A stretch of 64,000 bases of DNA, from the NCBI RefSeq assembly GCF_015477805.1, contig NZ_JADLQL010000001.1, positions 310,001 through 374,000 of the forward strand, given 5' to 3'. Positions 39,831 through 42,177 of the stretch are shown here, piece after piece. How positions within the stretch are numbered: position 1 is the first letter of the stretch; each line of letters opens with the position of its first letter. A program made the position numbers and the translations under genes. Origin of the DNA: Nocardia flavorosea. GTDB lineage: Bacteria > Actinomycetota > Actinomycetes > Mycobacteriales > Mycobacteriaceae. The notes beneath the pieces were generated by a model that saw nothing but the letters and a program-made list of their open reading frames with translations, was not told the origin of the DNA and searched no databases.

Positions 39831-40105
39831 ACCGGGCCGCCCCGCGCCTGCGTTCCGGCGACGGTACGCACGAAACCGATGGTACGGCAACGGTTCCGGG
39901 ACCGTCCTCGGCGCGATATCTGCGATTCCGCAGTGCCCGGCGCCGCTGAGCGCTACTTTTCGGGGCATTGCACGCGTCGATCCCGGCCGGTATCCGCCGC
40001 GGGATGGCGCAGTCGGGACGCACTACTGCGTTCGCACGACATAGTTCGCAAGGTCTGTGTAGTGTCTCTGCAATCTGAAACGCACACGAACAAGGCAGAG
40101 GCGCA

Positions 40106-40549
40106 GTGATCGGAATCGATGGATGTCTGGAACGGATCATGGGCATCCCGGGCGCGCGCAGTGTGACCTTGGTCGACGGGGCGAGTGGACTCGCGGTGGC
40201 CGGGGCCGGGCGCCACGACCTGGTGGATCAGCACGAGGACGCGGCCACCACAACCGATGTCGTACGTGCGGTACTCGGCTGTCCGGCGCTCGCGACCGGC
40301 GGAAACGACGACATCACCGAGATCATCGTGTGCGGCAGCGGCGGATACCACCTGATCGACCTGGTGCGTGGAGATTTCGAGGGCCGGCTGTTCGTACACG
40401 CGCTGTTCGACGAGGATTCCGGCAACCTGGCGATGGCCCGATTCCGGCTACGCGGCATCCTCGCGGAACTGACCGGGGACGGGCAGGACACACAACCGGC
40501 CGCGGGCGGTCCCCGGGTGGAACCGGCCGGGGACGGTCATGGGAATTGA
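40106..40549 (+). CDS. roadblock/LC7-like protein 1
   Basis: 147 residues. The core (about 1-115) has the roadblock fold pattern: N-terminal helix IDGCLERIMGIPGARSVTLVDGASGLAVAGAG, a central helix, then strands GGYHLIDLVRGDFEGRLFVHALFDEDSGNLAMARFRLRGI. Such proteins dimerise and bind Ras-like GTPases. GTG at 40106 follows GGCAGAGG. First of four genes; its stop overlaps the next start by 11 bases. The last thirty residues are a disordered Gly/Pro tail. Confidence 0.85.
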   Translation: MIGIDGCLERIMGIPGARSVTLVDGASGLAVAGAGRHDLVDQHEDAATTTDVVRAVLGCPALATGGNDDITEIIVCGSGGYHLIDLVRGDFEGRLFVHALFDEDSGNLAMARFRLRGILAELTGDGQDTQPAAGGPRVEPAGDGHGN

Positions 40550-41315
40550 TCTTGCGGACGAGCTGCGGCGCCTGGAAGACGCGGGAAGCACCGGCCTGCT
40601 GCATGCGGGCGACGGGGTTTTCCATCTCGCGGACGGCACTGTCGCCGCCGCCGAATGCCGCCGCACCACCGGGCTCGATCGGCTGGCTCTGGCGGCCGGG
40701 GTAGCCGGCACCGATGATTGGCAGCGCGCGGCCGCGGGCGATCCCGGGACTGTTCTGCGCCGGCCGCACCTCGAAACGCTGGCCCTGCTTTCGGTTTTCG
40801 ACGCCGCATATTTCCTGCTGTCGGCCCCGGCCGTCCCGGAATTCCGGCCCGCCCCGCCGCATTGGCTGGCTCCGGTCTGCCATATCCCGCCGCGGGTACT
40901 GGTCCGCGAATGCGCACGACGCGGCGACCCGGAGGCCGGGCCGTGGCCGGCCCGGCTGGTCGATCGGGCGACCGTGGTGCCGGTACGCCGGGTACGCCGG
41001 AACCGTGTCGTGCTCACCGGAGGCCAAGCCGAGGTGCTGGCAGCGGCGGATTCCCGGCGCAGTGTCACCGTTATCGCCCGCGACCTCGGACGCACCGCGT
41101 ACGGCTGCCTCGAGGCGGTTCGCGATCTCACTGCGGCCGGGTTGATCGAACCACCGGGCGACGGCCGGCCGCAGGCGGCCTCCCGACTCACCGGCGACCC
41201 GCTTCTGCGACGCCGGACGCGGCAGCCGGTACCGGTTCCGGAGGGCGGCGATTGGGAGCCGGTGGATCAGGAACTGCTCCTGCGGCTCCGCTCGGCGCTG
41301 GAGGATCTCGCATGA
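40539..41315 (+). CDS. winged-helix protein of the roadblock module (DUF4388/DUF742-like)
   Basis: 258 residues. The N-terminal half (DELRRLEDAGSTGLLHAGDGVFHLADGTVAAAECRRTTG) resembles DUF4388/PATAN-type modules found in signalling proteins. The C-terminal third, TGGQAEVLAAADSRRSVTVIARDLGRTAYGCLEAVRDLTAAGLIEPP, is a winged-helix-like block similar to the DUF742 (CvnC) proteins of Streptomyces conservons. ATG at 40539 lies within the end of the previous gene; its stop overlaps the next start (ATGA). Assignment is by pattern only. Confidence 0.75.
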   Translation: MGIDLADELRRLEDAGSTGLLHAGDGVFHLADGTVAAAECRRTTGLDRLALAAGVAGTDDWQRAAAGDPGTVLRRPHLETLALLSVFDAAYFLLSAPAVPEFRPAPPHWLAPVCHIPPRVLVRECARRGDPEAGPWPARLVDRATVVPVRRVRRNRVVLTGGQAEVLAAADSRRSVTVIARDLGRTAYGCLEAVRDLTAAGLIEPPGDGRPQAASRLTGDPLLRRRTRQPVPVPEGGDWEPVDQELLLRLRSALEDLA

Positions 41316-41785
41316 CGCCGCGCAGGAAGCTGCTCGGCGATCTGATGGGGAGGTTGACGAAGGTGCCGATGCGCGAACCCGGGCCGAATCCGGCGGTACA
41401 GGCGGAGCTCGCCGGGCTAAGGGCCCGGGTGCCCGGACTGATCGGGGCGCTGGTCGCCTCCAGCGACGGCCTGCTGGTCACCCACGATCTACCCGGCCAT
41501 ATCGAACCCACCGGAATGGCCGCGCTCGCCGCGGCGCAACTATCGCTGTCGAACCGGCTGGCGGGTGTCGCGCACGGCGGCGGGTTCCAGGAGGTCGTGG
41601 TGGACGGGTCGCGCGGGCATGTCGTCATCTACGCGGCCGGCTGGGCATCGTTGACGGTCCTCGCCGAACCGGACGTGAATATCGGCCGGTTACATCTCGA
41701 ATCGCGTCCGGCGGCGCGCACTATCGCCGAACATCTGGCGGGCACCGCCCGTGAACCCGGCAGAACCGATGCAAGACCCGGATAA
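41312..41785 (+). CDS. roadblock/LC7-like protein 2
   Basis: 157 residues. After a basic N-terminus (TPRRKLLGDLMGRL) the roadblock fold follows: AELAGLRARVPGLIGALVASSDGLLVTHDLPGHIEPTGMAALAAAQLSLSNRLAGVA, then strands GGFQEVVVDGSRGHVVIYAAGWASLTVLAEPDVNIGRLHLE. This is the closest of the three to CvnB/MglB proteins. ATG at 41312 overlaps the preceding stop. An upstream frame that overlaps the winged-helix gene is noise. Confidence 0.88.
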   Translation: MTPRRKLLGDLMGRLTKVPMREPGPNPAVQAELAGLRARVPGLIGALVASSDGLLVTHDLPGHIEPTGMAALAAAQLSLSNRLAGVAHGGGFQEVVVDGSRGHVVIYAAGWASLTVLAEPDVNIGRLHLESRPAARTIAEHLAGTAREPGRTDARPG

Positions 41786-41805
41786 CCCATCGAAAGGAAA
41801 TACCT

Positions 41806-42177
41806 GTGTCCGATATGGACTTGGCGCTGAAAGATATGATGACGATCGACGGTGCGATCGGCGCGGCCGTCGTCGATTACAACAGCGGTATGGCGCTGGG
41901 CATGCTCGGCAGCTCCAAAGCGCTCGACCTGCACGTTGCTGCCGCCGGTAACACCGAGGTGGTGCGCGCGAAACTGCGGACCATCGAACAGCTCGGCCTG
42001 CAGGAGGGTATCGAGGACATCCTGATCACGCTGACCGGCCAGTACCACCTCATCCGCCCGATGAGCGGCCGGAAATCGAAGGGCTTGTTCCTCTATCTCG
42101 CGCTCGACCGTGGCCGCGCGAATCTGGCGCTGGCCCGGCACAAGCTGCGCGGTATCGAAGAAGACCTCGAGGTGTGA
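41806..42177 (+). CDS. roadblock/LC7-like protein 3
   Basis: 123 residues, the most compact of the set: MDLALKDMMTIDGAIGAAVVDYNSGMALGMLG, a helix (DLHVAAAGNTEVVRAKLRTIEQL) and strands EDILITLTGQYHLIRPMSGRKSKGLFLYLALDR. It aligns in layout with protein 1 (both end in NLALARHKLRGI / NLAMARFRLRGI), so these two are probably a duplicated pair. GTG at 41806 follows GAAAGGAAA. Last gene of the module. Confidence 0.88.
   Translation: MSDMDLALKDMMTIDGAIGAAVVDYNSGMALGMLGSSKALDLHVAAAGNTEVVRAKLRTIEQLGLQEGIEDILITLTGQYHLIRPMSGRKSKGLFLYLALDRGRANLALARHKLRGIEEDLEV

Follow-up and report, generated by a model that had tools for sequence, protein, structure and literature searches.

The window analyzed here, a stretch of 64,000 nucleotides from a 6.4-Mb Nocardia genome (G000, contig C10:310001-374000), contains a block of four short genes, P1 to P4, at positions 40106-42177 of the forward strand, all in one direction and with overlapping open reading frames. 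N. carnea and N. speluncae are the nearest relatives at this locus. The genes are tightly packed, as described in an earlier note on this DNA, with P2 overlapping P1 and an ATGA overlap between P2 and P3:

40106..40549, + strand: P1 (gene 1), 147 aa, roadblock-like protein, by sequence a diverged paralog of P4; gene 1 in 74 of the 80 loci discussed below
40539..41315, + strand: P2 (gene 2), 258 aa, overlaps P1; DUF4388/PATAN-like N-terminal part, winged helix, and conserved C-terminal helix
41312..41785, + strand: P3 (gene 3), 157 aa, ATGA overlap with P2; Robl_LC7 roadblock protein of a clade distinct from CvnB
41806..42177, + strand: P4 (gene 4), 123 aa, the best conserved of the four; predicted roadblock fold, unnamed family

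Of the flanking genes, one reads as a molybdopterin oxidoreductase from its Pfam match, and others were assigned by eye as encoding a ferritin-like protein, an acyl-CoA ligase, an SDR, and a monooxygenase. The earlier note had pointed out that no Ras-like GTPase is near, and this holds for the entire window, in which neither PF03029 nor an MglA-like GTPase was matched, that is, no CvnD/MglA-like protein was detected; likewise, there is no CvnC or CvnD between positions 35 and 50 kb of the window. PADLOC gave no match, so that an anti-phage defense reading was dropped, and a search of the operon against Rfam identified no RNA element.

Roadblock proteins and the PATAN-like winged-helix protein

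The presence of three roadblock proteins, with the first and the third forming a duplicated pair, had been proposed from the sequence alone, and both proposals are borne out. P3 matches the Robl_LC7 profile (PF03259) at 4.2e-13 and 49.3 bits, the cut-off being 23. P4 has no match in Pfam or NCBIfam; its AlphaFold model (pLDDT 91, pTM 0.85) has the predicted topology H-E-E-H-E-E-E-H, which is that of the roadblock fold (alpha-beta-beta-alpha-beta-beta-beta-alpha), and in Foldseek comparisons it aligns with MglB of Thermus and Myxococcus with TM-scores of up to 0.83. Other Foldseek matches include Ragulator p14/LAMTOR, the Streptomyces roadblock protein 3kye, and MglC, with E-values of about 1e-6 and TM-scores mostly around 0.8. 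P3 and P4 are roadblock folds, the former by profile and the latter by predicted structure. On sequence grounds, P1 is a diverged paralog of P4 (37% identity; P4 HMM 4e-16), and its fold is called roadblock because of this homology; given the same likeness, the duplicated pair corresponds to roadblocks 1 and 3, that is, P1 and P4. A search of PDB sequences with P1 and P4 returned no meaningful match.

P4 is by far the best conserved: its median identity is 86% among Nocardia and 80% between Nocardia and Actinomadura, versus 64 and 42%, respectively, for P2. P4 is an unnamed roadblock family that is represented in at least four phyla, with homologs in Actinomycetota, Pseudomonadota, Deinococcota, and Bacteroidota.

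Genes of the P4 family are also encountered outside the module. On Hymenobacter and Deinococcus plasmids (L157, L158, L159), distant P4 homologs lie alone amid unrelated genes, one Deinococcus copy, that in L159, coming after a DUF4388 gene. Streptomyces (L133, L134, L135, L138, L140) often carry an extra P4 gene outside the module; in three cases, the next gene encodes a short ArsR-like regulator, and in L134 and L138, a CvnD gene is located about 4 kb downstream of the extra P4. In Nocardia aurantia (L074, 5162-6369) and N. alni (L085, 4953-6369), P4 is adjacent to a second P4-like protein that is 52-54% identical to the P4 of the window, with neither P2 nor P3 present.

P2 itself matches only a winged-helix model in Pfam, weakly, with DUF4388 below detection. 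Across the 23 P2 proteins that were scanned, DUF4388 (the PATAN domain) was matched in 7 and a winged-helix model in 14. The DUF4388 match in the Streptosporangium ortholog (L086; 7.2e-6, 26.5 bits) exceeds the cut-off of 25, and that in the Streptomyces ortholog (5.3e-5, 23.7 bits) lies just below it. Given these matches in orthologs, P2 can be described as a PATAN-like part plus a winged helix, the latter at approximately residues 160-210. In the AlphaFold model of P2 (pLDDT 85), both parts are confident, and a disordered stretch lies ahead of the C-terminal helix; with the whole-chain model, Foldseek found nothing significant, the matches to KICSTOR/SEA-complex proteins being weak, with E-values above 1.

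The winged helix recognized in the earlier note is thus retained, and the likeness of P2 to DUF742 that the same note suggested is not. None of the 23 P2 proteins was matched by PF05331 (DUF742); the best resemblance, in the Streptomyces ortholog, is sub-threshold (E 0.027) and involves the wHTH, and hhalign of P2 against the conservon protein CvnC yields a probability of 17%, for the wHTH alone. The identification of P2 as DUF742/CvnC is ruled out by the profile scans and hhalign, which indicate a weak wHTH resemblance at best. The P2 winged helix could nevertheless act in the manner of CvnC instead of binding DNA. MfpC, a CvnC homolog, has been reported as a likely GEF (PMC13343842). The recognition helix of P2 is rather hydrophobic, and the sequence of this region is RT(A/T)YGCL in one and RPAFHTL in the other of two clades that carry different upstream palindromes. 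In three Streptomyces genomes (G128, G572, G588), the P2 match in a six-frame search crosses one in-frame TGA, which could mark a frame boundary or a broken P2 gene, or stem from an error in the assembly.

Conservation of the module and its upstream sites

Using P4, we collected 80 loci from Nocardia, Actinomadura, and Streptosporangiaceae. The four-gene order, the search for which in related genomes had been suggested in the earlier note, is intact in 74 of these loci, where the median distances between consecutive genes are -11, -4, and +11 bp, and P1-P4 are also found in Streptomyces, on chromosomes as well as plasmids. Such an order, kept in 74 of 80 loci with such spacings, is not a chance arrangement. 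The neighbors beyond the four genes differ from one species group to another, and this variation around a conserved order with conserved overlaps indicates that the unit stands alone. P1-P4 is a real, conserved gene module. In Nocardia higoensis (L044), P3-P4 of one copy immediately precede a second P1-P2-P3-P4, so that the module appears to be duplicated in tandem.

The region upstream of gene 1 contains a palindrome that is new here; it is clade-specific and, in the Streptomyces and Actinomadura genomes tested, occurs at one place per genome. Among the Nocardia and Actinomadura upstream regions, 44 of 74 contain GGTAT-N1-4-ATACC (with at most one mismatch), 113-199 bp before the start of gene 1; the corresponding frequency is 2% for dinucleotide shuffles of these regions and 0.7% for stretches elsewhere in the loci. 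The genomes of N. niwae, N. pneumoniae, and N. gamkensis each contain two copies of the exact form GGTATTNAATACC, 17 bp apart and both at the module, and that of N. thailandica contains one, again at the module. The form GGTATTNATACC occurs once per genome, at the module, in each of the four Actinomadura genomes tested, the site positions matching those of the loci; in N. pseudovaccinii and N. aurea, the exact GGTATTNATACC site recurs at one or two additional places. The Streptomyces palindrome, GCATGTTCC-N3-GGAAAATGCC and close variants, in most cases lies some 100 bp ahead of gene 1. When one mismatch is allowed, this palindrome is found at a single place, the module, in all 11 module-bearing Streptomyces genomes and is absent from the three Streptomyces genomes without the module. 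Downstream of both palindromes there is a conserved TGTGTAG / GCGTAG motif, which we take as a putative promoter core. Because the site remains constant next to variable upstream neighbors, the simplest candidate for its binder is P2, the sole module protein with a DNA-binding-type domain.

The clade of the window itself has neither palindrome, the GGTAT site there showing 4 mismatches, and a scan for the sigma-70 consensus found none. Two elements precede gene 1:

40027..40050, + strand: TGCGTTCGCA with repeated GTTCGCA, just before the putative promoter core; kept in the N. carnea group (alignment, inverted repeats)
40056..40065, + strand: TGTGTAGTGT, putative promoter core containing TAGTGT, which is -10-like; conserved across an alignment of 11 Nocardia upstream regions

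At the position of the TGCGTTCGCA/GTTCGCA element, the N. fusca/jinanensis group has GCGTTC-N10-GAACGC, and the element is a possible candidate for a clade-specific control site.

GTPases, conservons, and the possible mode of action

Homologous clusters in more distant bacteria include a GTPase. In one deep actinobacterial locus (L147), the gene order is DUF4388-wHTH protein (580 aa), MglA-like GTPase, 219-aa protein, roadblock protein (1.8e-33 with the P3 HMM), P4-like protein, and P4; another (L164) consists of a GTPase, a roadblock protein, and P4, and two further actinobacterial genomes (L144, L150) have P4 beside a GTPase and a roadblock protein. The Comamonas cluster encodes a wHTH protein, a GTPase, a roadblock protein, and P4, and the Agarilytica cluster encodes P4, a BLUF protein, a GTPase, and a roadblock protein. 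On an Acinetobacter plasmid, a roadblock protein, a 321-aa protein, and P4 are encoded, with no GTPase annotated nearby.

The four Agarilytica genes are consecutive on plasmid pSU2 of A. rhodophyticola (L126, 5983-8054), and given that the BLUF protein is a blue-light sensor and the GTPase is MglA-like, the cluster is a possible light-gated small-GTPase system.

For the module itself, flanks of up to 6 kb on each side are free of GTPase genes in 78 of the 80 loci, the exceptions being L016 and L026. A search for CvnD homologs in the rest of the genome, also an idea of the earlier note, identified five CvnD-type GTPases outside the window, each within approximately 1.2 kb of a Robl_LC7 gene. 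Among 346 genomes of the class, CvnD-type GTPases are encoded in each of the 45 that have a strong P2 match versus 154 of the 301 others (Fisher 1.8e-12, uncorrected for kinship and involving few independent clades of large-genome Actinomycetes). Because the clades are few, the co-occurrence is consistent with a GTPase acting in trans and does not prove it. The suggestion that the module serves distant GTPases fits both the five CvnD genes and this distribution. P4 also exists by itself, and some genomes that have it lack a PF03029 match (for example, the 1.3-Mb G005).

In the maximum-likelihood tree of roadblock proteins, which includes several long branches and in which other deep joins are unsure, P3 belongs to a clade with 95/96 support that consists of 22 module rows and three GTPase-linked rows from deep Actinomycetota, whereas the CvnB proteins of the same genome form a separate clade (99/98). 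This tree, with P3 outside the CvnB clade, together with the gene content rules out a conservon fragment, an outcome that the earlier note had named as refuting its reading. Conservon genes, namely, CvnB, CvnC, CvnD, and two genes of one family that probably encode P450-type CvnE, immediately precede the module in N. pseudobrasiliensis and Nocardia sp. CDC159.

Elsewhere in G000, at approximately 564.7-568.7 kb of contig C22 (L162, 4747-8709), there are two CvnC-like ORFs and one CvnB-like roadblock gene of the conservon type, with no CvnD-like GTPase in the 16-kb stretch; this appears to be another roadblock locus without a GTPase, derived from a conservon.

The explanation that we favor, and to which we assign an even chance of being right, is that the module represents a stand-alone offshoot of the MglB/PATAN-type small-GTPase systems, one with no GTPase of its own at the locus, such that the roadblock proteins would control a self-regulating, DNA-binding P2, probably together with remote GTPases. 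P2 would bind the upstream palindrome and repress or activate its own operon. Roadblock proteins dimerize, and P1, P3, and P4 would form homo- or heterodimers that control P2 via its DUF4388/PATAN-like part. The signal would probably be the nucleotide state of a GTPase: in Nocardia, a CvnD-type protein encoded elsewhere, which the roadblock proteins may engage as MglB and CvnB do, and in the deep relatives, presumably the corresponding GTPase that sits in the cluster. A bolder and less probable reading is that the cross-phylum P4 family has, in actinomycetes, been drawn into a switch, either GTPase-less or with the GTPase in trans, whose roadblock heterodimers act directly on a PATAN-winged-helix repressor or activator that has a single dedicated operator in the genome, at its own promoter.

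A GTPase might not be involved at all, with dimers of P1/P4 and P3 serving purely to scaffold the DUF4388-wHTH protein or to sense a ligand for it, in a manner similar to MglC. The GTPase-free flanks, the Acinetobacter plasmid set, and the presence of P4 in genomes such as G005 all agree with this scheme, for which there is also a precedent in the MglC dimer sandwiched between MglB dimers (PMC7949163); however, the homologous sets retain the GTPase and CvnD-type GTPases are present in all 45 module-bearing genomes surveyed, and we consider GTPase independence doubtful. It is less probable still that the module is an accessory arm of conservons, relaying or buffering the signals of certain conservon GTPases, with P2 as the output or as a CvnC/GEF-like part, rather than forming a pathway of its own. 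Such a role would account for the loci in N. pseudobrasiliensis and Nocardia sp. CDC159 and for the weak resemblance of the P2 wHTH to DUF742, but this linkage is limited to 2 of the 80 loci, P3 is not a member of the CvnB clade, and neither CvnC nor CvnD is conserved with the module. That the module is a conservon decayed by loss of the kinase and the GTPase is highly improbable: GTPase-less conservons do exist, according to Wuichet and Sogaard-Andersen (PMC4316618), and one such locus is apparently present on contig C22 of the same genome, but P2 lacks DUF742, P1 and P4 are not conservon proteins, P3 belongs to a different clade, and the module is strongly conserved, in gene order as well as in the sequence of P4.

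Comparison with known roadblock systems

Our literature searches, on the module itself and on PATAN/DUF4388 or BLUF together with roadblock proteins, turned up no description of this module. The analysis extends the earlier note by identifying GTPase-bearing relatives, a palindromic site, and a cross-phylum P4 family. P4 is a highly conserved roadblock family that was missed by Pfam and NCBIfam and is found beside GTPases in other phyla; neither this family nor the single-place operators would be anticipated by a specialist.

The module resembles the conservons (CvnA-D) in being a tightly packed actinobacterial operon that combines a roadblock protein with a small wHTH-bearing protein. It differs in that there is no GTPase, P2 is DUF4388-like instead of DUF742-like, P3 is not placed among the CvnB proteins, and P1 and P4 are present as additional roadblock-like proteins; no kinase was seen beside the module, where the flanking genes read as other enzymes. 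MglC of Myxococcus xanthus is similarly a roadblock paralog that occurs alongside another roadblock protein, and the P4 model matches 7ct3 by fold; unlike the module, MglC acts in cell polarity, with MglA, MglB, and RomR.

GTPase-uncoupled roadblock proteins are common in bacteria, and the sections on orphan MglB in the work of Wuichet and Sogaard-Andersen report no characterized case as of 2014 (PMC4316618). The same sections describe a small actinobacterial clade of MglB that is exclusively orphan, without flanking conservon genes (PMC4316618). P3, with no adjacent MglA or conservon genes, matches this clade as described and may belong to it; partners and a DNA site are not given in the account of the clade (PMC4316618). 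With the module, an orphan MglB-type protein gains fixed partners, a probable DNA-binding output, and a reporter site, making its function testable in Streptomyces.

Further close parallels are MglA/MglB systems with PATAN and the Group 3 MglA systems, in which the partner is a receiver-like/wHTH protein; as described in the same work, these likewise place an MglB-like roadblock protein beside a PATAN or wHTH protein (PMC4316618). A role in transcription has been proposed there for the Group 3 systems, which the Comamonas cluster resembles (PMC4316618). The homologous clusters in deep Actinomycetota and in Comamonas and Agarilytica keep a GTPase along with P4; in contrast, the version seen from Nocardia to Streptomyces includes P1 and is without a GTPase at the locus. 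The module is a new version of the MglB/PATAN systems rather than a new kind of system.
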